Assembly: GCF_002161555.1 (NCBI RefSeq)
Contig: NZ_NFHZ01000020.1
Coordinates: forward strand, 1 to 48,696
Direction: 5' to 3'
Source: Barnesiella sp. An55
Lineage (GTDB): Bacteria; Bacteroidota; Bacteroidia; Bacteroidales; Barnesiellaceae
Length of the DNA: 48,696 nt
Shown here in pieces: positions 2,048 to 48,547 of this stretch. Under the pieces are notes generated by a model. It saw nothing but the letters and a program-made list of their open reading frames with translations, did not search any database and was not told the DNA's origin. Numbering within the stretch: position 1 is the first letter of the stretch; every line of letters starts with the position of its first letter. A program made the position numbers and the translations under genes.

Positions 2048-2431
2048 TTATGCGCTTTCGTCCAATCCAACCGTAGCAAGGTCATCCCTCACCATCTGTT
2101 TTATATCCGCAACGTGTGCGAGGTAAGCCTTGTAGTCGTTTACCGCCTTTGTCTTACGGTCTTCGTCCGTTTCTACTCCCAACTGTGCGGCATAGTAGTC
2201 GTTAATCAAAGAAAATTCTTCGGTTTCGTCTATCTCGCTGCGTATGATGGCACGTGTAAGGTTGTCGTAAGTCGGCTTTTCCCACACTTGCACAGTATCG
2301 TAGTCATAAACGGTCTTTTCGCCTACTTCTTCGTCTTCTATCTTCCTTTCCGTTACGTTGTAGTTGTAATGGAACGAGCCGTTACCCAAATCTTGGATAA
2401 TAGCCGGTCTAACGTCTGAATTTGATTTCAT
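2048..2431 (-). CDS. Hypothetical protein between DGR and lysis cassette
   Basis: 127 aa from the ATG at 2431 (MKSNSDVRPAI); an in-frame start three codons earlier (2440) is possible. Either start overlaps the 3' end of the reverse transcriptase gene by 23-32 bp, so the two are probably translationally coupled. The sequence is hydrophilic and acidic with many Tyr and Asp and no signal or membrane segment. I do not recognise a family. Coupling with the reverse transcriptase could mean a DGR role, but the region also begins the lysis cassette, so its function stays open. Confidence 0.6.
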   Translation of the reverse strand: MKSNSDVRPAIIQDLGNGSFHYNYNVTERKIEDEEVGEKTVYDYDTVQVWEKPTYDNLTRAIIRSEIDETEEFSLINDYYAAQLGVETDEDRKTKAVNDYKAYLAHVADIKQMVRDDLATVGLDESA

Positions 2432-3443
2432 AAGGTGCAATCTTATTTAACTTGTTAATAAAATACTCGCTATCGCTGTGTTTTGCCCAACCCCACCACG
2501 CGGCTACGGCTTGCATAAACTGCGCTTCGCCTATCGGTTTCTTCCTTTTCTTCAACTTGGCTACCTTCCGGCAAAAATTCTTCTTGATACTTTTCCGTAA
2601 CCGCGTTTCGTTGTGGTAGAATACATACCCCAAAAAGTCAATGCCGCGTCCTGTTCTGTCCTTGTGGTCTTTCGCTACTGGGAATATCTGTTTGTTTCCC
2701 TTTACTTCCAAATTCAGCCGTGTAGAAAGGTAGCTTTCAAAATCCGCAAGCAGACCGCGCAAAAACCTTTTTTCGCTGTGAAATACTACAATATCATCGG
2801 CATAACGAAAATAGTACCTTATGCGCTTTACCTCCTTAACCCAATGGTCAAAGTAGGCGAGCATGAGGTTAGCTAAGAATTGGCTTAGGTAGTTGCCTAT
2901 CGGAAGACCGTCCGCGCTGTCTATGATTTCGTCAAGAAGTTTAAGTAGCCGTGTGTCCTTTATCTTCCTGCGTACAATCCTTTTCAGTATGGCATGGTCT
3001 ATGGAAGGGTAAAACTTGCGTATGTCAATTTTCAGACAATACGCGCAGCCGGGCTTATCCCGGTTTATCACGTTCCGCAGTTTGTTCGCTGCCGCCTGTA
3101 TGCCGCGCCCCTTGATGCAACTGTAAGTGTCCGCCGTGAATACTGACACCCATACAGGCTCTAAGACGTTCATTACTGCGTGGTGTACAATGCGGTCGGG
3201 AAAGTACGGCAATCTGAAAATTTCACGCTCTTTCGGTTCATATATAAAGAATGTGCTATATTCCGAAGTCTTGTAAGTTCCTGCTTTCAACGCTTCGTGC
3301 AAAGCCAAAAGGTCTTCTTCAGCGTGCCGGTCATGCACCTTTACGCCGTATGTGTTAAGTTTTCCCTTACGCGCCCTTTGGTCTGCGAGCCGTAAGTTCT
3401 CTAAACTGATTATCCTATCGTATAAGTTTCCTAACCTTTGCAT
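2409..3443 (-). CDS. DGR reverse transcriptase
   Basis: 344 aa, full length for the family. Motifs in order: KIDIRKFYPSIDH (about 138-150, catalytic Asp), GLPIGNYLSQ (179-188), YADD (214-217) and GIDFLGY (267-273). The motif-4 form with IGN and SQ, in place of the QGSP of retron and group II intron enzymes, is typical of diversity-generating retroelement polymerases. The enzyme copies TR RNA with adenine-specific errors and the cDNA replaces a variable region. It lies directly downstream of the template repeat, as in the Bordetella phage cassette. All catalytic residues are present, so it should be active. Confidence 0.96.
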   Translation of the reverse strand: MQRLGNLYDRIISLENLRLADQRARKGKLNTYGVKVHDRHAEEDLLALHEALKAGTYKTSEYSTFFIYEPKEREIFRLPYFPDRIVHHAVMNVLEPVWVSVFTADTYSCIKGRGIQAAANKLRNVINRDKPGCAYCLKIDIRKFYPSIDHAILKRIVRRKIKDTRLLKLLDEIIDSADGLPIGNYLSQFLANLMLAYFDHWVKEVKRIRYYFRYADDIVVFHSEKRFLRGLLADFESYLSTRLNLEVKGNKQIFPVAKDHKDRTGRGIDFLGYVFYHNETRLRKSIKKNFCRKVAKLKKRKKPIGEAQFMQAVAAWWGWAKHSDSEYFINKLNKIAPYEIKFRR

Positions 3444-3563: not shown

Positions 3564-3676
3564 AGTATAGCTGGGAGCCGATGTTCGCATTCGTATTCGA
3601 AGCCGTGTTATTCGTATTCGCATACGCAAGCCCGGCATTCGCGCTGTTATTCGCGTTACCGCCGAAGAGCACACCC
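3564..3676 (-). repeat. DGR template repeat (TR)
   Basis: 113-bp non-coding repeat between the accessory gene and the reverse transcriptase. Read on the minus strand in the VR1 frame it would encode GVLFGGNANNSANAGLAYAN, with many AAC/AAT codons. Such Asn codons are a hallmark of DGR templates because randomising the adenines gives diverse residues but no stop codons. It aligns without gaps to VR1 (22 differences, all at TR adenines of the coding strand) and over its 3' 76 bp to VR2 (14 differences, all at adenines). The 3' end, with AGCTATACT on the minus strand, differs from the CGGCTTTGC of both VRs, as expected for IMH* versus IMH. Confidence 0.96.
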
Positions 3677-3701: not shown

Positions 3702-4061
3702 TCACTCAAAGTAATAGCGTGTGCCGCTCGCCCTCATCGTTACCCGGCGTGGAAATGCGTTGCGTTTCTTGATTTCCCTCAAAACGTACTTTATTTCGCT
3801 CGAATTGGTAAAGAACTTTTCGGCTTCGCTGTCTTTGTCATCACGGTTTCTCTTTATCTTCACTAAAAAGCGTTCCGCTCCGAACTTCGTTTTAACTCCG
3901 TCGATGAAGTCGCAAACCCAAAACGTGAGGTTGATCAACTTCTGCTGTGTCGTTTCCCGGCAGTTGAAATGCTTGTTTGCTTCGTCCTGCGGTATTGCCA
4001 AAAACGACAAACTTCCGTCATCTTCTTTCGTTGTCTGCTGTGTCTTGTTATTTTCGTTCAT
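3702..4061 (-). CDS. DGR cassette accessory protein in the avd position
   Basis: 119 aa between the target gene and TR, exactly where Avd sits in the Bordetella phage DGR, and similar in length to Avd (about 125 aa). The sequence is not obviously an Avd four-helix bundle: after a charged N-terminus it shows alternating hydrophobic stretches (LTFWVCDFIDGVKTKFG, RFLVKIKR, FFTNSSEIKYVL) and a C-terminal basic/aromatic end (RRVTMRASGTRYYFE). This looks more like a small beta-barrel or OB-like protein. It is basic overall near the end, which fits nucleic-acid binding. The role as DGR accessory is inferred from position only. Confidence 0.7.
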   Translation of the reverse strand: MNENNKTQQTTKEDDGSLSFLAIPQDEANKHFNCRETTQQKLINLTFWVCDFIDGVKTKFGAERFLVKIKRNRDDKDSEAEKFFTNSSEIKYVLREIKKRNAFPRRVTMRASGTRYYFE

Positions 4062-4156: not shown

Positions 4157-5488
4157 CTACGCCGGGATAAAGCAAAGCCGGGAGCCGAAGTACGCAAGCG
4201 TAAACGAAGCCGTGTAAATCGCAAACGCAGACGCAAGCCCGGCAGCCGCGCCGGAACTCGCGTAACCGCCGAAGAGCACACCCCTCATAGCCGCGCCGGA
4301 AGCAGGTATATTGGTATAGAAGTAATCGGCAAAGTAGGTCGTTGAACTTCCTCCTACCTCTGTCGGCATATTCTCGCCGTGTTCTCCAACCATCAATCGT
4401 TTAACATAGCCCTCTTTTCTCGGCAACTCTCCGCGCAAATCATAGTCGTTATAGCTGCTGTCTTGGAACTTAGCAGGGTCATCACAAACATAAAACTTCG
4501 ATTTTGCTCCGTCCGCTTCGCTCTGTATCTCGCACTTGCATCCGTCAGTCCAACTCCACAAATGCCCGAAAGGGTTTTCTATTCCCCTGTAAGAAGGTAC
4601 GCTTACTTTGGTAACTACTCCCGTGTCGTATTCGTCCGGCATCGTGAACTCAACAACGCCGGTTCGGTTTCCTAAACTATTTGTAGTACCGCAAGGTATG
4701 AACGGGTAATAGCTGTTGTATGCGTTCCACTTCGTACCGTTCAAGGTGGTAACTCCGTTGCCTAATCCTCCCTGCTTGTACCCTTCGCTTGTAGGTTCTG
4801 CGTTGTATGCGGCTTGGCAATTTAAGTTTGCGTACTCAATGACGTAAAGCCAATATGTCGCAAGCTGTGCAGCGTACAGGTCGCAATTCCAACCGCAACC
4901 GTTAAGCCCGGCTTCCCCTCTGTTTCGTGCGTACTTTCGGAAGTTGGTAAGGCTCGTAGCGGTTGCCGGGAGTCCTAACAGGCTTCTATATGTTCCATCC
5001 CATGCGGTATTGTTGTTCCCACCTCTGAAATTAGCCGTCTTGTTTACTACGCTTGCAAGTTTCGGGGTTGTGCTTACTGTGCGGTCTATGGTCGCTTCGT
5101 ATGCACTTCTGTACATCTTCGGCACTTCATGGAAGCCCGGAAGGTTGTACAATGAAATAAGTACGGTTATAGTTGTGCCGTCAAATTCGAATTTACGGTA
5201 GTGCTTTGGTATCTCTACCATTACTTGCCCGGTTGTTCCGGTAAGGTCTGCCGTCGCTCCCGTGTCTGTTTTCGTGCTGTCGGTAGGGTGCAAGTATGTT
5301 ACAACCTCGCCGTTGTCGTTAATCAAGCAACGGCGCATCAATGACTGTACCGGCAGCGTAACGTGCAATTCCGGTCGCCCAACCCTTGTTAATGCCGGGT
5401 CTGCTACATTCACGTTGATTTGCACTCCGTAATAATAATCGTAAGGGAAAGTCGGTTTTGTATTCCCAATTCCTATAAATATACCCAT
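4157..5488 (-). CDS. DGR target 1: variable tail-tip or receptor-binding protein
   Basis: 443 aa from the ATG at 5488 (MGIFIGIGN), chosen because it follows the upstream stop at 5499 without overlap; the start at 5515 would overlap it. The C-terminal half has features of the C-type-lectin/formylglycine-enzyme-like fold of DGR targets: GHLWSWTDG, then RGVLFGG introducing the variable stretch, then a conserved GSRLCF end. VR1 covers about residues 402-439. Variable positions are occupied by Tyr, Ser, Phe, Ala, Leu, Ile and Gly where TR has mostly Asn. It lies between the tail-tip and lysis genes, so it is probably displayed at the tail tip and sets receptor choice. Confidence 0.88.
   Translation of the reverse strand: MGIFIGIGNTKPTFPYDYYYGVQINVNVADPALTRVGRPELHVTLPVQSLMRRCLINDNGEVVTYLHPTDSTKTDTGATADLTGTTGQVMVEIPKHYRKFEFDGTTITVLISLYNLPGFHEVPKMYRSAYEATIDRTVSTTPKLASVVNKTANFRGGNNNTAWDGTYRSLLGLPATATSLTNFRKYARNRGEAGLNGCGWNCDLYAAQLATYWLYVIEYANLNCQAAYNAEPTSEGYKQGGLGNGVTTLNGTKWNAYNSYYPFIPCGTTNSLGNRTGVVEFTMPDEYDTGVVTKVSVPSYRGIENPFGHLWSWTDGCKCEIQSEADGAKSKFYVCDDPAKFQDSSYNDYDLRGELPRKEGYVKRLMVGEHGENMPTEVGGSSTTYFADYFYTNIPASGAAMRGVLFGGYASSGAAAGLASAFAIYTASFTLAYFGSRLCFIPA
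4171..4283 (-). repeat. DGR variable region 1 (VR1)
   Basis: Gap-free alignment to TR 3564-3676 with an offset of 607. All 22 mismatches fall at positions where TR has T on the plus strand (A on the coding strand); 0 of 84 other positions differ, and 7 of 29 adenines are unchanged. It ends 12 bp before the stop codon of the target gene. This pattern is diagnostic of adenine-specific mutagenic retrohoming. Confidence 0.97.
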
Positions 5489-5498
5489 GACTATAATT

Positions 5499-5759
5499 TT
5501 AATAGCCCCAAACAAGGGCGGTTGCTGAACTCGTTTTCTTTATCTCTCGTATGATTTCGGGATTCCACCCGGTTTCAAACCGTGTGCTGATGAACTCGCC
5601 TTCGGGCATTCCCCAAAGGTTCACTTCAAGCACTACCGCCGTTTCGCCGTCGTTCTTCAAGCAAAAAGGCGTGTCCATCTTGAAGTTGCCGCCGGAAAAA
5701 TCAACCGTTCCGGCTACTGATATTTGTGCGCTTACTAAGTCGCCGTTTCTGTTTTGCAT
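5499..5759 (-). CDS. Small hypothetical protein upstream of the DGR target
   Basis: 86 aa, no signal peptide or membrane segment, rich in beta-forming residues (VLEVNLWGMPEGEF, TRFETGWNPEII). It is the first gene of the transcription unit that holds the DGR target, DGR enzymes and lysis genes, with a TAnnTTTG -7 box 26 bp and a palindromic site 44 bp upstream. Its stop lies 10 bp before the target gene start. Position suggests a small tail-tip or fibre-assembly protein; I do not recognise a family. Confidence 0.7.
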   Translation of the reverse strand: MQNRNGDLVSAQISVAGTVDFSGGNFKMDTPFCLKNDGETAVVLEVNLWGMPEGEFISTRFETGWNPEIIREIKKTSSATALVWGY

Positions 5760-21448: not shown

Positions 21449-21555
21449 CACGCGCGTTATAGCAACAACATCAACAATGAATATATTTATAGATACTGAT
21501 ATAGATATAAGGTTGTTTTTGCTTGAATTAGGTTGTTTCAGCTTGTTTTATCTTG
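21449..21555. repeat. Decayed copy of the DUF6291 gene repeat tract
   Basis: This non-coding stretch resembles 37276-37442 inside the DUF6291 gene. Exact blocks are 34 bp (21492-21525 equals 37326-37359) and 19 bp (21532-21550 equals 37407-37425); an upstream block has the same CAACAACATCAACA run beside GCGCGTTAT. It has no open frame of its own. It is either a relic of a recombination event or a second site for whatever binds the tract. Confidence 0.75.
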
Positions 21556-21593
21556 TTTTGGGTTGTTTGCATTACTGTTTGTACGCTTTTTGA

Positions 21594-36318: not shown

Positions 36319-37038
36319 CTACGGCGGTGGTAGCCTTGTTAGTCTTGGTCGGTAACTTGGATTCTCAAAGCCTATAAGGTCGAACATCTCTATAAACCTG
36401 TCCGCTATCCTCAAACCGTACCGCTTCGCTATGTCCTCATCGCCTATCAAGTTTGATGTTATGACCGTAAAGAGTTGCCGGTCGTAACGGTGGTAAAGCA
36501 AATCCACCAACGGGCTAACTTCGTTTCCCCATACCTTGATGCTCGCCGGTTCTGTTCCTACGTCATCTATGTACAACAACTCTTCGCCTTTCAGCCTGTT
36601 TAGTAAATCCTGCTTTTCGCCCCTCGCGGCTTCCGTAAGTGCCGATGCCGGTATTACCGTTACTTCCTTCCTTTCGGTTGAAAGTGCGCTATAATACAAC
36701 GTGCCTATAAGCTGCACTATCGAACGCGCTAAGGTGGTTTTTCCGTTTCCGGGTTCGCCGTATAGGAATAATCCGGGCTTGGTACTCGCTCCGAGCAACC
36801 AACGTGCGGCACGCGCTATGTGGTCTTCTGTCGCTTCGTCCGGCTTAAATTCGTGTCCTCTTTGCTCCACTTGATAACGGTAGCACTCGCGTAACATTCC
36901 CGGTACGTCCTGCGTATAGCGGTCGATTCTAAATCGTGCTGCGTAGGGCTTTTTTCTTCGTAGTGCTTCCGCAAACGCCGCTAAGTTTATCCTCTGCGGC
37001 TGCTGTGGATTCCCTGTTTGTCCTTGTTGCTCTGCCAT
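36319..37038 (-). CDS. DnaC-like helicase loader ATPase
   Basis: 239 aa. Walker A GEPGNGKTT (about 94-102) in LFLYGEPGNGKTTLARS, Walker B LLYIDDVG (about 153-160), then sensor-like VITSNL. This is the AAA+ pattern of DnaC/IstB-type loaders that deliver replicative helicase. The gene overlaps the upstream DUF6291 gene by 110 bp, unusually long for this genome. It follows DUF6291 in transcript order, so the pair probably runs phage replication initiation. Confidence 0.85.
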   Translation of the reverse strand: MAEQQGQTGNPQQPQRINLAAFAEALRRKKPYAARFRIDRYTQDVPGMLRECYRYQVEQRGHEFKPDEATEDHIARAARWLLGASTKPGLFLYGEPGNGKTTLARSIVQLIGTLYYSALSTERKEVTVIPASALTEAARGEKQDLLNRLKGEELLYIDDVGTEPASIKVWGNEVSPLVDLLYHRYDRQLFTVITSNLIGDEDIAKRYGLRIADRFIEMFDLIGFENPSYRPRLTRLPPP

Positions 37039-37741
37039 TATCTTTCAATTTTGAACGGTACTTTATCCGTAGTTGGTTTATCAAATGCTGCGCCTGTTCT
37101 TTGTAGTCATTGTGCGTTACTCTTGTCAGTTCCCATTCCGCTATGACTTCTTCGGCTTCTTTCCGTAGTGTGTCCGGGTCTGTGTGAAGCTGCATACAAA
37201 TGACCTCAATTTGCGCCCGGTGCGTTTCGCTGAAAAACTCATCTAAAAACTTCCTGTTGTTTTCTCCTTCTCGCGCGTGCGCGTTATCAACAACAACATC
37301 AACAGAATTATTATTTATTGATTCTGATACTGATATAGATATAAGGTTGTTTTTGCTTGTTTCTGCTTGTTCCTTATCTTCTTCAAGTTGTTCTAAGTTG
37401 TTTTTAGTTGTTTCAGCTTGTTTTAGGTTGTTTTTAGTTGTTTCAACCTGTATTGTTTCGCTCTCTACTTTCGCTTTTTTTCTTGCATTACTGTTCCCTT
37501 TGGGTGCGCCACCCTTTTTCCCACGTTCTACATAGCTTTCATAACGCTTTACGTTGAAATCAATCTGCGGCTTGAAGGAAAGAAACAAAGCAAGCGCAGC
37601 CGGTTCTGTGCTTTCCGGCGGCATAATTCCGTCAAAAGCGTATGCGTAAACCAACCGCGAAACCTCCTTATACAATTCCGGCGGCAAAACGTCTAACGCC
37701 TGTATTATATTGCGAAAAATCACTATGCTATCTTGGCTCAT
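36929..37741 (-). CDS. DUF6291-like replication protein with internal repeat tract
   Basis: 270 aa. The N-terminal 70 residues fit DUF6291 (SIVIFRNIIQALDVLPPELY, EVSRLVYAYAFDGI, NVKRYESYVERGKKGGAP). The middle has a 10-residue repeat, ETTKNNLKQA then ETTKNNLEQL and ETSKNNL, encoded by 30-bp period DNA repeats. Its C-terminus is charged and helical. Position directly before the loader suggests an origin-binding or initiator role, similar to lambda O next to P. DNA of the repeat tract is partly copied at 21449-21555. Confidence 0.72.
   Translation of the reverse strand: MSQDSIVIFRNIIQALDVLPPELYKEVSRLVYAYAFDGIMPPESTEPAALALFLSFKPQIDFNVKRYESYVERGKKGGAPKGNSNARKKAKVESETIQVETTKNNLKQAETTKNNLEQLEEDKEQAETSKNNLISISVSESINNNSVDVVVDNAHAREGENNRKFLDEFFSETHRAQIEVICMQLHTDPDTLRKEAEEVIAEWELTRVTHNDYKEQAQHLINQLRIKYRSKLKDNGRATRTNRESTAAAEDKLSGVCGSTTKKKALRSTI
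37276..37445. repeat. Repeat tract inside the DUF6291 gene
   Basis: Includes two exact 19-bp copies, GTTGTTTTTAGTTGTTTCA at 37397-37415 and 37427-37445, 30 bp apart, plus degenerate copies upstream. Part of the tract recurs at 21449-21555. Iteron-like repeats within an initiator gene recall the lambda origin in gene O. Confidence 0.6.
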
Positions 37742-37790: not shown

Positions 37791-38636
37791 CTATGCTTCC
37801 TCTTGGTCTTTGTATGCCATACAAAAAGCCTTTTCCACAATCGCGTTACAAGCAAACGGCGAAGCCGATAGTATTGAAATATCCACTACCTTACGTTCGT
37901 CGCCGTCTTTCTCGGTGCGTTCATTAACCTTAGCGTCTATCCACGCCGTTATTACCACCTTCGCCGTATCTACGTCCTTCGTCCGTACAATGAAGTCGTA
38001 GGATGTCTTTCCGGGTTCTTCTTCATCCTCTGCCTTTATCGCTACTTCCGCTTCAACCTTGTAATACTTTACATCTCCCCTTTGTTCCTCTGCGTTGTCC
38101 GCTTCCTCTCCGGCTTCGTTTGCCCCTTCCTGCGCTTCTACATACTTCCTCAACCTGTCGTTAAGTATAACAACGTCATCCATCAGCTTTACGCCTGTTA
38201 TGTCGAAAGACTGCGTAAAGTTCAATTCTATGAAGTCCGTAGCTACCTCTATTGCCTTTGTTACGTTCTGTGCCTGCAATATGAAGTTATGCCGCTTCAT
38301 TCCAATAGATGCGCTTACCTTGTACGGGTAAAGCCCGGTTCTTTTATTCTGCGTGGCTAATCTGCGTTGGTTGCTTACTTCTACCTCTTTTATCTCTTCG
38401 GCTTGGATGCTGAAATTTATTTGCGTCGCCAAATCGTTATCTATGTACTTTCCACGCTCAAACAAAATCTCATGCCGCTCAATCGTAATCACTTCGCCGG
38501 TGCTTTCGTCTAAAAAATCTTCTTTCCACGTTTTAAGCACATTCGCCGCCAAATACTTTCCGATAATTCTCCGTGTGTCCGAAGTCTTGAAGCGTACTTC
38601 GTCCTTTCTTGTTTGTATCTTTTCGGGCTGTTTCAT
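37791..38636 (-). CDS. Hypothetical early protein
   Basis: 281 aa, mixed alpha/beta with an acidic insertion (QEGANEAGEEADNAEEQRGD, about 170-190) between two domains. N-terminal half: FLDESTGEVITIERHEILFE, IGMKRHNFILQAQNVTKAIE. C-terminal half: KAEDEEEPGKTSYDFIVRTK. The two halves look related to each other (both end VTKAIEVATDFIEL- and DTAKVVITAWIDAK-type helices). No family recognised. It overlaps the neighbour upstream by 4 bp. Confidence 0.68.
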   Translation of the reverse strand: MKQPEKIQTRKDEVRFKTSDTRRIIGKYLAANVLKTWKEDFLDESTGEVITIERHEILFERGKYIDNDLATQINFSIQAEEIKEVEVSNQRRLATQNKRTGLYPYKVSASIGMKRHNFILQAQNVTKAIEVATDFIELNFTQSFDITGVKLMDDVVILNDRLRKYVEAQEGANEAGEEADNAEEQRGDVKYYKVEAEVAIKAEDEEEPGKTSYDFIVRTKDVDTAKVVITAWIDAKVNERTEKDGDERKVVDISILSASPFACNAIVEKAFCMAYKDQEEA

Positions 38637-39187
38637 ATCTTCTCAATCAAAATTTGTTCGTACAATTCCGTGAATGCGTTACCGGCATAACGTGCCGTAT
38701 CTCTGTCATGAAAGCAAAGCCGCTGGGTAATGCTTGCATGCGTAATTGTGGCTGCGCTATCCGTATCAGCAAATGCAAGTTTTGCTATACCTTTCCCGTT
38801 AGCGTCTTCGTGAATTTCAAAGTATGGATAATACTTCCTAACGTCAGTGTCGTTTATATCCATCTTGCATCCTTCGTTTAGGGCTTCCGTTATGGTTTCC
38901 AATTTGCGCCGGGCTATTTCGTCCTGTCTGAAACCTTGCGCCTTCATGCTTTGTTCGTTCATGGGTTCTATTCCCAACACGTTGCAAGCATCGGCGTATG
39001 ACCTCACTCGTTCGGTTATCCCCTCATATTCCTGCTCATCTGTATAGAAGTCAAAAACGGTAGTATCTTCGTCTTCCTCCGTAAATTCTATTACTTTTTC
39101 CTGCGCTTCTTTCAATGTGTCAAAGCGTCCTATAAGTTCCGTTTCTTGGTCTTCAAGAAGTTTGTACAAAAAAATCTTTTTCATCAT
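38633..39187 (-). CDS. Old homologue of the VR2 target
   Basis: 184 aa. The segment from SYADACNVLGIEPM to the C-terminus aligns with the N-terminal 115 residues of the 41196-41963 protein (SYEDACNVLNIQPI). It keeps the QRLCFHDRDTARYAGNAF end of the variable domain but lacks a TR-like stretch: differences from TR occur at all bases, not only adenines. It has its own N-terminal part (YKLLEDQETELIGRFDTLKE). It was either never, or is no longer, a DGR target. Intracellular, unknown function. Confidence 0.72.
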   Translation of the reverse strand: MMKKIFLYKLLEDQETELIGRFDTLKEAQEKVIEFTEEDEDTTVFDFYTDEQEYEGITERVRSYADACNVLGIEPMNEQSMKAQGFRQDEIARRKLETITEALNEGCKMDINDTDVRKYYPYFEIHEDANGKGIAKLAFADTDSAATITHASITQRLCFHDRDTARYAGNAFTELYEQILIEKI

Positions 39188-39604: not shown

Positions 39605-40363
39605 CTAAAAAGGTGTTTTGTTGAACTTGATTTTTAATCCCGGCTTCGCTATATGCACCGTTTTACCGGTCGCTTTCGCTATGCCGTTCCGAAAAGCCAC
39701 ACCATCGCCGTTTCCGTCGCTGATATGGATTAATACAATGTTGTTTACCGCTGAAAGGTCGTTCGCTTTCAAAGCGTCCAGACAGGTATAATAACTTAGG
39801 TGGCTTCTTCTTACCCTTTCCTGCAAAACTTCCGGTATCGTTCCGTCGGCTACTCTCCGGGCTAATATATCCGGGTCATAGTTGCACTCGATAAGAATGT
39901 TGCTTAACCCTTTGAACTTACAAGGCAAATAGAACGTATCGGTAGCGAATAGCACACCGCCGGTTTCCTCATGCCAAATGTAGAAGCCGAGCGGTTCTGC
40001 CGCATCGTGCTTCGTTTGGAATGGAATAACCACAAATCCGCCTAATCGAAACTGCCCGTAGTTCCCTGCACTGCCTTTTATCGGCGTTGGCTTATATCCG
40101 CCCTTGATGTACTTTTGTGCGCCCTCTATCGTTCCTTCAGAAGCGAATACCGGTATAGCGTAACTCAATACTTCGTTAATCCTCCCGGCATGGTCGCCGT
40201 GTTCATGCGTTACCAAACAACCTACGACTTTGCGCACGTTTCCATCCAAAGCGGCTAATACCTGCTTGAACGGTTTTCCGGCTTCAAGCAGCAGGGCTTC
40301 TCCTGCATTCTGCAAAACGTAGGAGTTGCCCTCGCTGTTAGACCCTATAACGGTAAGTTCCAT
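39605..40363 (-). CDS. Metallo-beta-lactamase-fold hydrolase
   Basis: 252 aa. The HxHxDH motif (THEHGDH; His53, His55, Asp57, His58) and later KHD and SHLSYY segments are the metal sites of the MBL fold, as in YycJ/WalJ-type nucleases. It probably acts on nucleic acid or phosphodiesters. Found with RecT-like and SSB genes, so a DNA-processing role is likely. Start at ATG 40363 is followed by an MELTVIGSNSEGNSYVL strand-loop typical of this fold. Confidence 0.85.
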   Translation of the reverse strand: MELTVIGSNSEGNSYVLQNAGEALLLEAGKPFKQVLAALDGNVRKVVGCLVTHEHGDHAGRINEVLSYAIPVFASEGTIEGAQKYIKGGYKPTPIKGSAGNYGQFRLGGFVVIPFQTKHDAAEPLGFYIWHEETGGVLFATDTFYLPCKFKGLSNILIECNYDPDILARRVADGTIPEVLQERVRRSHLSYYTCLDALKANDLSAVNNIVLIHISDGNGDGVAFRNGIAKATGKTVHIAKPGLKIKFNKTPF

Positions 40364-40365
40364 AA

Positions 40366-41187
40366 TCAGAAAGCCGGTTTAGCGTTATTGTTACCTCGCC
40401 CGTTACGTGCCGGAGGTGCTTCGCTTACGGGTGCTTGCGGCTGCGGTGCTGTGGTCGGTCTTACTTCCTCTGCACTTTCAAAACCGATAGCCGCCCCCGT
40501 ATTCGCTTCTTCCCTAATCTCAACTGCAACCGCATCAATCACTTGCGTACTTGATTCGTCGCCATCGCCGAAGTCCGAGCCGGTTATATACTCGTATAAG
40601 GCTTTCTTTGCTTTCCGCTCTGCCTTCCCCCGTATTTGGTCGTTGCTGCTGTAATCATTCCTTGCTACGGTGGTGTTCACGGTAAAGCTGTTTTTCTCCC
40701 CGTTATGCTCGTAATTGATTTTGCAGGCTAATTCGGCGTATTGTGGGCTTTGGCTTTTGTCCTGCCCAATCTCTATCACGTAGCGCACACCCAATTTTTT
40801 AAGAAGTGCGGTATAGCCTTCTTTTGTCGGGTACATCCGTTCCGCTAAAATGTTGAATTGGTTTCCGGTCGGAAGCAAGCCTATTATTACCGCGTCTATG
40901 ATACAATCACGCACAACGTCGCGGCTGTAAAGCGGCAATGTCTGCCCCTTCTTGTTAGGCTTCCCCGTCCTGTCGGTCATAAAGCCTATTTTAGTATTCA
41001 TCAAAGGCATAAATACCTTATCCATAACTTCGTCTGTCAAGGCTTCGCGAAGCAATGTTACAATACTTACGGCGTTGAACGCCGCCGCTACGTTGCCCAC
41101 TATTTCCAACGTCGTAGCTTCCTTGCAAGCTAAGGCGAATTTTTCTTTTGCGGCTTCAAGCGTAGCCGGTAGTTTACTTTGGCACAT
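40366..41187 (-). CDS. RecT-like single-strand annealing protein
   Basis: 273 aa. The core QFNILAERMYPTKEGYTALL (about 106-125) and the preceding LPTGNQ fit the RecT/Redbeta family; the C-terminus is Pro/Ala-rich and disordered, also typical. It anneals complementary single strands during phage recombination. It lies between the MBL gene and the VR2 target. Domain assignment is by motif; the nuclease partner is not an obvious RecE. Confidence 0.82.
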   Translation of the reverse strand: MCQSKLPATLEAAKEKFALACKEATTLEIVGNVAAAFNAVSIVTLLREALTDEVMDKVFMPLMNTKIGFMTDRTGKPNKKGQTLPLYSRDVVRDCIIDAVIIGLLPTGNQFNILAERMYPTKEGYTALLKKLGVRYVIEIGQDKSQSPQYAELACKINYEHNGEKNSFTVNTTVARNDYSSNDQIRGKAERKAKKALYEYITGSDFGDGDESSTQVIDAVAVEIREEANTGAAIGFESAEEVRPTTAPQPQAPVSEAPPARNGRGNNNAKPAF

Positions 41188-41195
41188 GGTTAATT

Positions 41196-41963
41196 CTATT
41201 TTCCGGGTTCTGTGAATAATTCGGCGAAGAATTTCGCGCCCTCCTGCTTAATCCGCTCATGCAGTCTTTGCATGGCTACAATTTCCGTAGCCTGTTTAAC
41301 AAGCGGTGCAGATTCTTTCCGGGTAAGGAGTTCGGCTATTCCGTAAGTTATAGCCTTTCCGTTCCCACTGATTCCGATAATTGCCCCTGTTGCGCTTTTC
41401 CCTCTTTCGTCGGTTGTTTCCGTGTCGCAAGCAATCATCACAATTCCGCGCGTCTTCTTTTCTTTTGTCAATGGCTCTAATTGCGTTGCCACAATTTCGG
41501 TTGCTTTCTTGATAAAATCTCCTTCGGGTAAACTTTCCAATCTTGCACGTGTTTCGTCGCTCATCACTGCTTCCGTATCTTCTTCCACCGAAGCCGGAAG
41601 GCAATAGAAGTCCGTGTACAGGTCGGCGAACGTGGCGGCGGCGTAGTCGCTCATCGCTTCCGTTTTGAAGCAAAGCCGGGAGCCGATGCTCGCACCCGTA
41701 ATCGAAGCCGCGGTAGCCGTAAGCGCACACGCAAGCCCGGCATTTTCGTAGTAGAATACCGGAAAGTATTTGTATTGGCTTCTGTTGTTCCAATCCGGCT
41801 TCCAACCTCCGTTGATGGCTTTTGTTATTACTGTCAGTTTGTGGTAAGCTAACATACTTTTGCGGTCTTCTTTCGGGAAAGCTGCTACCGCGTTTTCACT
41901 GATAGGCTGAATGTTCAAAACATTGCAAGCGTCCTCGTAGGACTTGATTTCTTTGTAGTTCAT
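41196..41963 (-). CDS. DGR target 2: early protein with variable region VR2
   Basis: 255 aa, no signal peptide or membrane segment, so probably cytoplasmic. The N-terminal domain (about 1-115) begins SYEDACNVLNIQPI and contains the VR2 stretch (residues about 74-98) ending GSRLCFKTEAMSDYAAATFA; this domain family, with KYFPVFYY and GSRLCF, is related to the C-terminal variable end of DGR target 1. The C-terminal half carries two copies of an (K)ATEIVA(TQ/MQ) helix and a Gly-rich IGISGNGKAITYG segment. Its function is unknown; it lies beside the RecT-like and ATPase genes. Confidence 0.82.
   Translation of the reverse strand: MNYKEIKSYEDACNVLNIQPISENAVAAFPKEDRKSMLAYHKLTVITKAINGGWKPDWNNRSQYKYFPVFYYENAGLACALTATAASITGASIGSRLCFKTEAMSDYAAATFADLYTDFYCLPASVEEDTEAVMSDETRARLESLPEGDFIKKATEIVATQLEPLTKEKKTRGIVMIACDTETTDERGKSATGAIIGISGNGKAITYGIAELLTRKESAPLVKQATEIVAMQRLHERIKQEGAKFFAELFTEPGK
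41669..41744 (-). repeat. DGR variable region 2 (VR2), second target 38 kb from TR
   Basis: 76-bp gap-free match to TR 3564-3639 (offset 38105). All 14 differences are at TR adenines of the coding strand, none at the other 54 positions; 8 of 22 adenines are unchanged. Reading frame agrees with TR and VR1 frames. The IMH side (GGCTCCCGGCTTTGCTT on the minus strand) is identical to VR1, including the three bases that differ from TR. Confidence 0.93.
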
Positions 41964-41982: not shown

Positions 41983-44043
41983 TTAGAAATTGTTTACTGC
42001 AAAATCATCTTTCGTTACCACCAACTTTATAAGTTGGCTATTAACCGGTATAAATTCATTCACGCTTTCGGCTTCATCAACGAATATAGGTGCGCTTACG
42101 TCGTGAAAAGCGCAAAGGGTGTTTATTACGTCAAGCCCTGCGTTTACCTTTCCTGCCGCGTTTTTGTCTGAATACTTCACGCCGTCTATGTAGCAAATGC
42201 AGTCAGGCACTTGTTTCGCGTCTTCTATCTGTGTGCGGTACATCTTGAACTTTACCCGGCTGAATAAAGAGTTTACCCGGCGTTCTACTTCGTTCATTTG
42301 TGCCGTAACAAAATCGTCGATAGTCGTTTCTTCTGTCTGCAAGTTGGCTTTTTCCTGTGCCAATACTTCGGCTTCCGCTTTAAGTTCCTTAATTCGCTTC
42401 TCGTTGGTTTCAATCGTTGCACGTATATTCAGTTTGCGTTTCACTTCGTCAAGCTGAGCGGCTATCTCTGCTTTCCTCTTGCGAAGTCTTGCGGTATTGT
42501 CCGCTCCTCCGCTATCCGTTTTCGGCAGTCTTGCGGAAAGTGTTTCTATCTCGCTTTGAATCGTAACCCATTCCGGTATGTCTTCTCCTTTTATATCCGG
42601 TTCTGTACTTACTCTTGGATTCTCTGAAAGTGTCCTTTCCAATTTGGCACGTCTTTCCGCATAATCGGCTACGGCTGCTTGGTGCTTTTCTTCTTCTTGT
42701 TTGAGAAGTCCGTATAGTCTGTTTATTTCCGATTCTTGCGCGGCTATTTGGTCGGTCAGTTTCTTCCCGTTGTCGTTTATACCCTCCAACCGCTTTTCTT
42801 TGTCTTGGTAGAATTTGTTTCGTGCTTCTATCCTGTCGGCTTCATATTTTTGTAAAGCCGTCGCATCTGCGCATACGTGCTTGAATAATGGGCATACAAG
42901 GTTGTCCGTTTCTGCAAATTCTTCGGCGTTCACTTTATACCACTTCTCGCGCAGTTCGTCTTGCTGTATCGTATAACTTTGCTTTGTTGATTCTGCGCGG
43001 CTGATGTCGTTTTGAAGCCGGGTACGTTCCGCCTTGTAGCTCCGTTCCTCGTTTTGCTCGTTTGATGCTATTTGGCGTAACTCACGTTCCGCATTATTGT
43101 ATGTTTCGTTTTTCTTGTATGCTTCGTTCCGAGCTTTGTCCTTAGCGTCAAACAATAGTTTTTGTTGCCGCGTCCTCTTTGCGTTAATTTCCCCTTGAAT
43201 TTTCGCGGCTTGGTTGTAGGCAATACGGTTCGCTTCGGCTGCTGATGCTACCGATTCGTCTATTTGCGTAAGTTCTGCTTCCAAAGCGTCCTTTTCCTTT
43301 TCCAACGCTTCGTAATCCGGTGCTTCCGGCGTAACTTGCGTAATTGCGTTTATGGCTGTTGGTATCTTTTCGAGTTGTTCATTTACCTTTGCCTTCCGTG
43401 CGGATACCTCACGCTTGTAATCCTCCAAAGTTTTTCCGGTAAGCTGCGCAAGCAGAAGGGCAAACCGTTCGTTTCCTCTTGCTATTTCTTCGTCGCTTAC
43501 GTTCCCGGCTATTTGCAGCAACATTTCACGTTGCGCCTTCCAATGAAGCGTAAGGAAATAGTATGGGTCTGTTATAATTTTGAAGACAGCTTCGGGTATG
43601 ATGGCGTTAATACGCGCTTCATATTCCGCTTTTGTTTTCAATGGCACACCGTTGTAGAAAAAATCGGTATGGTGTCCTTTTAGCACTCTCCCGGTTTCTC
43701 CGTTTGGCACTTTCCATTCTTCAACCAATACCCGGCGGAGTTCCACGCTTTCAACCGCTCCCGTTTCGGTATCGGTAATCTCAAAAACTCCGGTAACTCC
43801 GTGTTCGAGGTCAGGAATGAAATTTCCGTTTTCGTCTGTAGTCTTGATGCCAAACTTGCTATCGGTTTCCCCTTCGCTGTTTTTACCCCAAAGAAGCCAA
43901 CTAAAAGCATCCTTGATGGTTGTCTTACCTGTTCCGTTACGTCCGCTGATGGTTGTAACATCGTCGCTAAACTCTATTGCGACGTTCCGCAAGCCCTTGA
44001 AATTAACAAGCTGCAAGCGTTTGATAATTACTTGTTTATTCAT
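41983..44043 (-). CDS. RecF/SbcC-like SMC-type ATPase
   Basis: 686 aa. Walker A GRNGTGKTT (about 34-42), long coiled-coil arms (about 215-560) with a CPLFKHVCAD hinge segment that may be a zinc-hook-like or hinge site, and C-terminal Walker B APIFVDEAES. This is the AAA/SMC arrangement of DNA repair ATPases such as SbcC or RecN. It may help recombination or replication of phage DNA together with RecT. It lies upstream of the VR2 target. Confidence 0.87.
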   Translation of the reverse strand: MNKQVIIKRLQLVNFKGLRNVAIEFSDDVTTISGRNGTGKTTIKDAFSWLLWGKNSEGETDSKFGIKTTDENGNFIPDLEHGVTGVFEITDTETGAVESVELRRVLVEEWKVPNGETGRVLKGHHTDFFYNGVPLKTKAEYEARINAIIPEAVFKIITDPYYFLTLHWKAQREMLLQIAGNVSDEEIARGNERFALLLAQLTGKTLEDYKREVSARKAKVNEQLEKIPTAINAITQVTPEAPDYEALEKEKDALEAELTQIDESVASAAEANRIAYNQAAKIQGEINAKRTRQQKLLFDAKDKARNEAYKKNETYNNAERELRQIASNEQNEERSYKAERTRLQNDISRAESTKQSYTIQQDELREKWYKVNAEEFAETDNLVCPLFKHVCADATALQKYEADRIEARNKFYQDKEKRLEGINDNGKKLTDQIAAQESEINRLYGLLKQEEEKHQAAVADYAERRAKLERTLSENPRVSTEPDIKGEDIPEWVTIQSEIETLSARLPKTDSGGADNTARLRKRKAEIAAQLDEVKRKLNIRATIETNEKRIKELKAEAEVLAQEKANLQTEETTIDDFVTAQMNEVERRVNSLFSRVKFKMYRTQIEDAKQVPDCICYIDGVKYSDKNAAGKVNAGLDVINTLCAFHDVSAPIFVDEAESVNEFIPVNSQLIKLVVTKDDFAVNNF

Positions 44044-46944: not shown

Positions 46945-47234
46945 ACACTTCGCCTATTAGCGATGCTGTAAGCCGCCGTTTCTTTGTCGCTCTTGACGCG
47001 CTTATAAATACCGGTAGGGTTGATTCGCTCAACCAATTTTGCGAACTTCATAACCTTACTTCGGCACGTTATAGGGAAATGCGGCTGACTTATGGCATAA
47101 CTCCCAATCCCCAACACAAACCACGTTATAAGAACTTGGAAATAGAAGCCATTTATACGATGGTGGCTAATTACCCTATATCCGCGCATTGGTTACTGAC
47201 CGGGCGCGGCGAAATGATGACCGATAAGAAATGA
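46926..47234 (+). CDS. Second HTH-like regulator, co-transcribed with integrase
   Basis: 102 aa. N-terminal helical part (SRRFFVALDALINTGRVDSL, NQFCELHNLTSARYREM) followed by YPISAHWLLTGRGEMM, the same WLLTGRGEM-type ending as Bacteroidales phage repressors. It overlaps the integrase start by 4 bp (ATGA). A regulator of integration or excision is likely. Confidence 0.7.
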   Translation: MPRTTVNTSPISDAVSRRFFVALDALINTGRVDSLNQFCELHNLTSARYREMRLTYGITPNPQHKPRYKNLEIEAIYTMVANYPISAHWLLTGRGEMMTDKK

Positions 47235-48547
47235 AGTATAGCGTAAAGTTTCAACTATCAACCCGTGAAGGAATGAACGCAAAAAGCGTTCCAATCCGTT
47301 TGCGCGTATGTTATTCCGGGTATCGTATAGATATCCATTCCGGATATGTTATTGATGCTAATAAGTGGGATAAGGAAAGCCAACGGGTAACGCTTGGCTC
47401 TAAAAACTGCTATAAGCAAACTTCGGGCGAAATAAATAGGGGATTGGCTAATATGGTTTCTAAGGTTGAAGAAGTCCTAACACGCTTTGAACTCGAAAAC
47501 CATCGAACGCCAACGCCAAAAGAATTTAAGCCGCTTTTCTATGCTTCAATCGGTCGGAACATTGCCGAAGAAAAAGAAGAAGCCCGGCAACAACCGCCGT
47601 GCTTCTTTGAGGTCTTTGACCGGTTTACTTCCGAAATGGGCGTTACTAATAATTGGACGAAAGCGACCTACACTAAGTTTGCAAGCATTAGGCATCACTT
47701 AATGAACTTTCGCCCGGAACTTTCCTTAGATGGCTTTTCAAAGTCTGACTTTGCCGCCTTTGTGTCTTATCTGCAAAAGGAAGAAGGGCAACTTAATACT
47801 ACCGTCGCTAAAAATGTCGGTTTCGTTCGTTGGTTCTTACGCTGGGCTTCCGCAAACGGTTATTATTCCGGTGCCGCCCATTTGCAATATCGCCCACGTT
47901 TTAAGGGCTTGGACTGCAAGGAAGTTATATTTTTGACTTGGGACGAATTGCAACACTTCTTGAACTTTAAGTTTCCGCCTAATAAACCGTCGCTTCCTCC
48001 CGTCCGTGACGTGTTTTGTTTCTGCTGCTTTACCGGTTTGCGGTATTCTGACGTTGCCCGGCTCAAAGTTTCCGACATCAAACGTGATGCCGTACCTCCT
48101 TATATTTCTATCGTTACTAAAAAAACAACGGATAGGCTACATATTGAACTAAACAGCTATTCTCTTGCAATACTTGACAAATACAAAGGAATACGCTTGC
48201 CCAACAATAGGGCTTTACCCGTACTAAGCAACGTAAAAATGAATGAACATCTACATGAAGCTGCCGAAATCGCCGGAATAAACGAGCCTGTTAGTGTTGT
48301 GTCGTATAGCGGAAGTGAACGTAAAGAAGTGGTAGTACCTAAATACGCGGTTCTAACCACACATTGCGGAAGACGGACGTTTATAGTAAATGCGCTTCGT
48401 CTTGGCATACCGGCTTCGGTTATAATGGAATGGACGGGACATAGCGATTATAAAGCCATGAAGCCTTATATTAAAATAGTGGATGCGGCAAAAGCCGAAA
48501 ATATGGCACGGTTTGACAACTTCGGGAAAACTGATAAGAACGGGTAA
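47231..48547 (+). CDS. int: Tyrosine site-specific integrase
   Basis: 438 aa. N-terminal arm-binding part, core-binding SAM-like domain (about 125-215: FFEVFDRFTSEMG, FAAFVSYLQKEE), catalytic domain with Arg271 (GLRYSDVARLK), H378xxR381 (HCGRR), His404 (WTGHSDYKA) and nucleophile Tyr413 (KPYIK). It integrates and excises the phage. It is the last gene at the right end, next to the probable attachment region. All five catalytic residues are present. Confidence 0.95.
   Translation: MKYSVKFQLSTREGMNAKSVPIRLRVCYSGYRIDIHSGYVIDANKWDKESQRVTLGSKNCYKQTSGEINRGLANMVSKVEEVLTRFELENHRTPTPKEFKPLFYASIGRNIAEEKEEARQQPPCFFEVFDRFTSEMGVTNNWTKATYTKFASIRHHLMNFRPELSLDGFSKSDFAAFVSYLQKEEGQLNTTVAKNVGFVRWFLRWASANGYYSGAAHLQYRPRFKGLDCKEVIFLTWDELQHFLNFKFPPNKPSLPPVRDVFCFCCFTGLRYSDVARLKVSDIKRDAVPPYISIVTKKTTDRLHIELNSYSLAILDKYKGIRLPNNRALPVLSNVKMNEHLHEAAEIAGINEPVSVVSYSGSERKEVVVPKYAVLTTHCGRRTFIVNALRLGIPASVIMEWTGHSDYKAMKPYIKIVDAAKAENMARFDNFGKTDKNG

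Follow-up and report, generated by a model that had tools for sequence, protein, structure and literature searches.

In phages, diversity-generating retroelements (DGRs) are usually explained as tropism switches. For BPP-1, adenine mutagenesis that depends on the reverse transcriptase (RT) and copying in one direction only have reportedly been established. Its tail DGR is said to combine an RT, a template repeat (TR), adenine-specific change and a tail target, as the locus described here does, but to have that single target beside the RT and a hairpin after the variable region (VR). DGRs with several targets are also known, and in the available parts of the literature the phage targets are mostly tail or other host-binding proteins (PMC8143477, PMC7981956, PMC6642488, PMC8525569, PMC12386605, PMC10367356, PMC8144416, PMC10743442).

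The closest described case is Quimbyvirus (Benler et al. 2021, PMC8008677). As far as the accessible parts of that paper go, one DGR with adenine-specific variation serves a tail-side VR and a distal second VR in a probably non-structural gene, which lies among defence-related genes with nuclease, methyltransferase and tRNA ligase genes around it; the RT is spread over three frames, and the abstract contrasts the second target with the structural targets known before. Four inducible gut prophages (Nature 2025, PMC12629997) also carry a second VR, located away from the RT and close to counter-defence genes, and LoVEphage-type prophages were reported as inducible in the same article. The portions of it at hand do not name a protein family or describe RT-adjacent DGRs dedicated to one, unlike what we report below. 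The Bacuni phages of Bacteroides uniformis likewise have a VR next to the RT and another on a remote ORF, but both targets are described as fimbrial-tip-like adhesion proteins whose VR is 3'-terminal, according to the parts of PMC8143477 available. Tentaclins, as described in extracts of PMC10743442, resemble our case in that one TR serves two unlike proteins, one of them with its VR away from the C-terminus; the phage tentaclins, however, are 313 aa or longer with N-terminal C-lec and then Ig domains.

The DNA analysed here, called the window below, is one whole contig of 48,696 bp that reads as a temperate phage. Genes for endolysin, tail, capsid, portal and terminase proteins were found on the minus strand. 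The window also encodes an integrase, an SbcC-like ATPase and a DnaC-like helicase loader. As in Quimbyvirus, one TR serves a tail protein and a distal non-structural protein, the latter being non-structural from context only. We interpret the locus as a prophage DGR of the order Bacteroidales, working or until recently so, with two live targets, VR1 in the tail gene and the distal VR2 (probability roughly 0.85).

The DGR core and the tail target

The tail gene with VR1, a small gene, the TR and the RT form a set on the minus strand.

2409-3443, minus: DGR reverse transcriptase (P0004), 344 aa, an open frame with YADD and GNYLSQ (GxxxSQ) motifs
3564-3675, minus: TR, 112 bp matched by VR1; the part 3564-3639 is matched by VR2
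3702-4061, minus: small gene between the VR1 gene and the TR, phrog_19665
4157-5515, minus: tail protein, the target of VR1; phrog_5302, tail, E 1.7e-138
4171-4282, minus: VR1, in the 3'-terminal part of the tail gene; 22/29 TR adenines and 0/83 other positions changed over 112 bp

P0004 matched RVT_1 (E 3.7e-18) and the phrog_1423 reverse transcriptase (E 5e-125). In NCBIfam it gave RT matches below the cutoff only; the profiles used were general RT models, none of them DGR-specific. Its GNYLSQ fits the GxxxSQ motif as quoted in the available text of PMC12386605. The sequence-only reading had proposed that a single DGR diversifies a tail protein and a second target, and the phrog_5302 match bears out the tail side of this proposal. 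The tail frame as listed begins at TTG with a hydrophobic N-terminal stretch, and a later start is possible. The sole match of the small gene was phrog_19665, a family of unknown function; a weaker phrog_19665 match was also seen next to the RT in L015, a relative with Mu-like transposition genes, and the product is a candidate DGR accessory protein.

VR2 as a second, distal target

41196-41963, minus: VR2 target gene, encoding P0001, 255 aa; phrog_11581 (unknown function), E 5.8e-42
41669-41744, minus: VR2, the variable region of the distal target; 11 free and three fixed 3'-end adenine changes and no other change relative to the TR

VR2 aligned with TR positions 3564-3639 over 76 bp without a gap, with changes at 14 of the 22 TR adenines and at none of the 54 non-adenines (Fisher p 4.7e-10). 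These are exactly the figures given from the sequence alone, with one amendment. VR1, VR2 and a third region, VR3, described below, agree in the differences at 41677, 41673 and 41671 (QLY to RLC), and a similar 3'-end difference from the TR recurs in the VRs of relatives; these three of the 14 were therefore counted as fixed, leaving 11 free adenine changes. When both strands of the window were scanned with the 112-bp TR, three matches exceeded the threshold, namely the TR itself, VR1 (score 81.2) and VR2 (56.4), whereas the best score in 20 shuffles was 13.2. Identity to the TR stops outside the borders of VR2 (16/76 upstream, 10/76 downstream). The region was said to lie in the correct frame, which we could confirm: at gene offset 219, codon positions 1 and 2 hold 21/22 of the TR adenines, and no stop is created. 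VR2 covers residues 74-98 of the 255 in P0001, in the middle of the protein and not at the C-terminus. That VR2 is a DGR target is in our judgment close to certain.

All three regions share GGCTTTGCTT where the TR has AGCTATACTG, so that the TR counterpart of this stretch carries adenines. We infer that GGCTTTGCTT, in which both live targets end, is a homing mark, in the absence of homing data. In DGRs of the BPP-1 type a stem-loop reportedly follows directly after the VR, although this is said not to be universal. A hairpin search behind the VRs found a 5-bp stem after VR2, none after VR1, and different stems or none after other VRs. A hairpin behind VR2 as the homing signal was rejected, since this single stem is not shared and conservation of a hairpin at this place was not seen.

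The contig lacks an exact terminal direct repeat of 15 to 300 bp, and its completeness is thus not established; if it circularises, the shorter path from VR2 to the TR is about 10 kb, compared with 38 kb in linear form. Two stretches of the window (21492-21588 and 37326-37473) contain 10-bp periodic GTTGTTT-type repeats, and a 46-nt stretch is 89% identical between both. Rewriting of VR2 in trans by the RT at 2409-3443 is inferred, as there are no data on RT dependence, and present activity of the DGR in the window itself is not shown, there being no reads or expression data for this prophage.

Template and variable regions in related elements

Within the genus the gene was sought in nine genomes, including its own, and was found in its own genome only, so that no strain of the same prophage was available for comparison. 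A profile search across the order found the family in 11/393 genomes, again with its own genome included. The related loci comprised 12 other viral ones, 10 of them with the RT in the same contig, and eight bacterial ones. In a tblastn search of phage records, P0001 matched nothing at 1e-5; P0002 (the paralogue introduced below) and a short relative did match as queries. Fifteen distinct records were matched by two queries, and the four that were examined all had an RT.

The gene and an RT occurred on one contig or record in 27 elements, each counted once, and a TR-VR pair was found in 26 of them. The remaining element, BT-TP2, contains an RT, but no pair was found and its record breaks off within the gene. 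Duplicates were L032 (of L009), L033 (of L012) and G284 (of L027). A usable RT was lacking on the contigs of seven family loci: none was found with the gene in L007, L014, G102 and G299, G318 had RT matches on other contigs only, and L029 and L030 had weak RT matches only. The L029 contig seems to stop short of the expected RT site.

We compared 42 VRs from 25 phages or prophages with their TRs, including two VRs of L029 that were scored against the TR of its sister L028. The VRs differed from the TR at 565/870 adenines and at 23/2432 other positions. No non-adenine difference was present in 31 of the 42, and the other 11 had one to six. Twelve of the 23 non-adenine differences came from L009, six in each of two VRs. 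The 26th element, L043, was scored apart and gave 12/24 adenine differences with one non-adenine difference in one VR, and 16/24 with none in the other. In 25 of the 26 elements with a pair, each VR had at most two non-adenine differences. A third VR of L034 (51 bp, 12 adenine and no other differences) is not in the table of 42. In L009 and L023 the 73 bp compared include just 11 TR adenines, and perhaps this TR is drifting out of use.

Since the VR ranges in this table had been cut by their match to their own TR, the assignment of VRs to TRs was tested again with whole genes and TRs carrying 40-bp flanks. The own TR ranked first of 25 for all 37 untrimmed genes or gene-bearing stretches. L029, L043, G135 and G379 were not in this test; the last two were excluded because TR and VR lay in the same fetched piece. 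The sequence-only reading had named two outcomes that would refute it, a VR2 identical in all relatives and differences from the TR spread over all base types. Neither was obtained: the VRs of the relatives are not identical, each fits its own TR best, and their differences fall at adenines in the proportions given above.

A decayed paralogue and a natural strain pair

The window holds a second member of the family.

38633-39187, minus: P0002, paralogue of the VR2 target; phrog_11581, E 9.6e-24
38713-38779, minus: VR3, a decayed variable region within a TR-like stretch at 38712-38779; differs from the TR at 11/20 adenines and 13/47 non-adenines

P0002 no longer has certain residues that hardly vary among the family members (GWKPDW to GCKMDI, and GSRLCF to TQRLCF). 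Its orthologues in L028 and L029 are clean VRs, with 14 and 10 adenine differences, respectively, and no others against the TR of L028. VR3 thus seems to be a copy that is no longer rewritten. It drifted at all bases while VR2 did not, and therefore serves as an internal control for VR2.

L028 and L029 are 95.3% identical over 18.4 kb and were compared as strains, with positions assigned by the TR of L028. The orthologues of P0001 differ at 10/23 TR adenines, 2/53 other VR sites and 29/650 sites outside the VR, and those of P0002 at 11/21, 0/53 and 30/475, respectively. The VRs are not the most divergent bins, as non-VR bins of 76 bp reach 16 and 12 differences compared with 12 in VR2 and 11 in the P0002-type VR; the restriction to adenines alone sets them apart. 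Adenine-restricted variation in related phages, which had been suggested as a check, was accordingly seen in a natural pair.

These comparisons bear on an explanation without retrohoming, in which the VR2 gene and the TR derive from one lectin-like coding sequence and have been held alike by constraint on the protein. Such ancestry would fit the GSRLCF end, which is conserved in most of the family and in most of the RT-proximal tail targets seen. It does not fit the lack of any change at the 54 non-adenines of VR2, third codon positions included, the preference of all 37 genes for their own TR, the variation between L028 and L029, or the 13/47 non-adenine changes accumulated against the same TR by the unrewritten paralogue. 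We consider this explanation scarcely tenable. Chance similarity of VR2 to the TR was rejected along with it, on the TR scan against shuffles, the adenine-only counts and the own-TR test. The evidence is better described by two targets, VR1 and VR2, kept variable from one TR.

The VR2 protein

P0001 consists of an N-terminal VR domain (about residues 1-122) and a C-terminal alpha/beta extension. The extension (41196-41560) has no Pfam match and is present in five of the 36 aligned members of the phrog_11581 family (the window, L005, L027, L028 and L029). Conserved residues were found across all 36. AF2 models had mean pLDDT values of 80 and 82, with values below 50 in the middle of the VR loop; in the model of P0001 a helix is predicted after the VR, followed by a further domain. 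Among solved structures there was no convincing match (the best Foldseek E value was 1.4 for P0001, the 126-aa domain gave none, and one sequence match had E 0.34). Four matches at E 0.001 or better were found among predicted viral structures, all to uncharacterised phage proteins. With the VR loop modelled at such low confidence, whether the VR domain has a C-type lectin fold is undecided.

P0001, at 255 aa, matched no Pfam family at E 0.1 and on these grounds was rejected as a tentaclin, a protein with an N-terminal C-lec domain and Ig domains after it. Membership in a defence system was rejected as well, since no PADLOC model matched any of the four family proteins tried. In one relative, a single open frame (L011:9404-10336) contains two fused family domains, each with its own VR.

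Genomic context of the VR2 gene

The genes around the target are as follows.

36319-37038, minus: DnaC-like helicase loader, which marks the replication module
39605-40363, minus: metal-dependent hydrolase of the metallo-beta-lactamase superfamily, phrog_392; also a neighbour in L028 and Versailles
40366-41187, minus: neighbour without a recognised family; the label RecT-like is unsupported
41983-44043, minus: SbcC-like ATPase adjoining the target, phrog_77
47231-48547: integrase

The target had been placed between RecT-like and SMC-like genes. The SMC-like neighbour is indeed SbcC-like, but the RecT identity of 40366-41187 was dropped, as no profile or database search supports it; the corresponding position in Versailles is occupied by an annotated recombination protein. 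Of the 32 PADLOC models matched by the SbcC-like neighbour, those listed mostly cover its ATPase end, and we read the matches as generic.

The window and L028 share the order SbcC-like protein, target, unknown protein, metal-dependent hydrolase, phrog_2113, P0002-type gene and helicase loader. In Versailles the order is SbcC-like protein, recombination protein, hydrolase, NinB-like protein, target and replisome organiser, and in L008 it is exonuclease, Gp2.5-like SSB, two targets, RT, DNA polymerase and helicase/primase. In L015 a transposase and transposition genes (Mu-like) are followed by the targets and the RT, and the family member of LoVEphage lies near a Holliday junction resolvase, methyltransferases and a tRNA ligase. 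In all 36 aligned members, every 19-residue window stays at or below a Kyte-Doolittle mean of 1.61, a result from hydropathy only, without a signal-peptide predictor. The description of the VR2 protein as early and probably intracellular is supported by this hydropathy and by the module of SbcC-like protein, hydrolase and helicase loader, though not by expression data. From the context we infer that the protein is very probably non-structural and acts in the cell, whether infected or lysogenic.

It could instead be a minor component of the virion, or be ejected from it, and encounter the surface or cytoplasm of the host during entry. Most phage DGR targets described in the accessible parts of PMC8144416 and PMC10743442 are virion proteins, and the Versailles member is annotated as a tail protein. 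Yet this label can be explained by VR similarity, the only tail match of P0001 being confined to residues 73-103 (E 0.003). The genes also lie outside the structural genes in every context examined (the window, L028, Versailles, L008, L015 and LoVEphage), and a strongly hydrophobic stretch is missing. A place in the virion is improbable, and we continue with an intracellular protein. The annotation in Bacteroides phage Versailles itself (L056:6001-6582) probably arose from similarity of its VR to phrog_5302.

Placement of the targets relative to the RT

Two ARRANGEMENTS were found among the 26 elements. In 13 the target is far from the RT, at about 14 kb in LoVEphage and no less than about 35 kb in the remaining 12. 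Twelve of these distal-type elements were checked, and in all of them a phrog_5302 tail protein was the RT-proximal target; cr52_1 is the unchecked one. In the other 13, two or three copies of the family domain directly adjoin the RT. An RT tree with 24 rows placed the 12 beside-RT elements that it included in one supported group (98/94); L043 and LoVEphage were not included.

On seven of the 13 beside-RT contigs the family copies were the only VRs found. The scan was ungapped with a score threshold of 22 and left out at most about 300 bases of a contig; these contigs measure 17 to 63 kb, and their completeness is unproven. Among the seven, G004 has genes for terminase, portal and virion structural proteins.

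VR2 might also be a passive landing site that carries the homing end and has no selected function. In BPP-1, retrohoming is said to need only the 3' end and homology, and VR3 shows that targets can decay. A mere by-product is nevertheless hard to reconcile with residues conserved across the 36 aligned members, or with a family that is the only target found in 7/7 contigs scanned, each of which keeps two or three copies. We regard it as very improbable and retain the view that VR2 belongs to a protein under selection.

Three further features were seen among these elements. In LoVEphage (L062-L064) the RT homology is split in three separate pieces. The RT frame of cr52_1 (L059), a crAss-like phage, has six TAG codons, as expected with TAG recoding. 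In G333 (L096-L099) a single contig holds two DGRs; each has a TR of its own and a distal target at a distance of about 45 kb.

The split RT, the methyltransferases and the tRNA ligase of LoVEphage resemble those of Quimbyvirus, and the second target of Quimbyvirus is therefore probably a member of the same family, an inference made without sequence comparison and from the parts of PMC8008677 available.

Proposed function and significance

In the mechanism we propose, the RT would copy TR RNA with errors at adenines, and the cDNA would replace VR1 at the C-terminus of the tail protein. At a distance of 38 kb it would also replace VR2, which lies centrally in a small, soluble-looking protein of the recombination module. 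The variable loop may bind a partner that itself changes quickly, most likely factors of the host, or of rival phages, acting on phage DNA as it replicates or recombines. The phage would then diversify a protein for counter-defence or recognition alongside its diversified receptor-binding protein. A counter-defence role, as opposed to some other role inside the cell, is inferred from position alone, and we put it forward only tentatively.

The variable protein could also work during lysogeny, recognising incoming rival phages or plasmids. The integrase in the window would agree with such a role, as would the sporadic occurrence of the family (the 11 of 393 genomes given above), which is expected of variable accessory functions. 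The gene, however, lies in a recombination module, and in L008 between a Gp2.5-like SSB and a DNA polymerase, and expression data are lacking. Action against superinfection thus appears unlikely, and a partner acting on the phage's own DNA remains our preferred reading.

The sequence-only reading considered a target of this type unusual. Its novelty is smaller than thought, as tail and distal non-structural targets of one DGR have already been reported in Quimbyvirus and in the four gut prophages, as far as the accessible parts of PMC8008677 and PMC12629997 show. A literature search, which was not exhaustive and did not cover supplements, found no publication that names the phrog_11581 family or DGRs devoted to proteins of a replication module. 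New here, beyond what was found in print, are the family, its breadth, the apparently dedicated DGRs, and the place beside genes of replication, recombination and transposition.

More generally, small intracellular binders diversified by DGRs may accompany the replication, recombination and transposition modules of Bacteroidota phages, forming an 'adaptive' repertoire against factors of the host or of rivals that change and that act on phage DNA, and some phages may run a DGR for this family only, keeping two or three variable copies without a tail target. We offer this as a conjecture that could well prove wrong. The partner of the VR2 protein is a testable question, with defined genes, phages on record (Versailles and the LoVEphage type) and a decayed paralogue as control. 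A conserved family of non-structural targets, apparently with DGRs of its own, would mean that phages also keep variable a protein that acts inside the cell.
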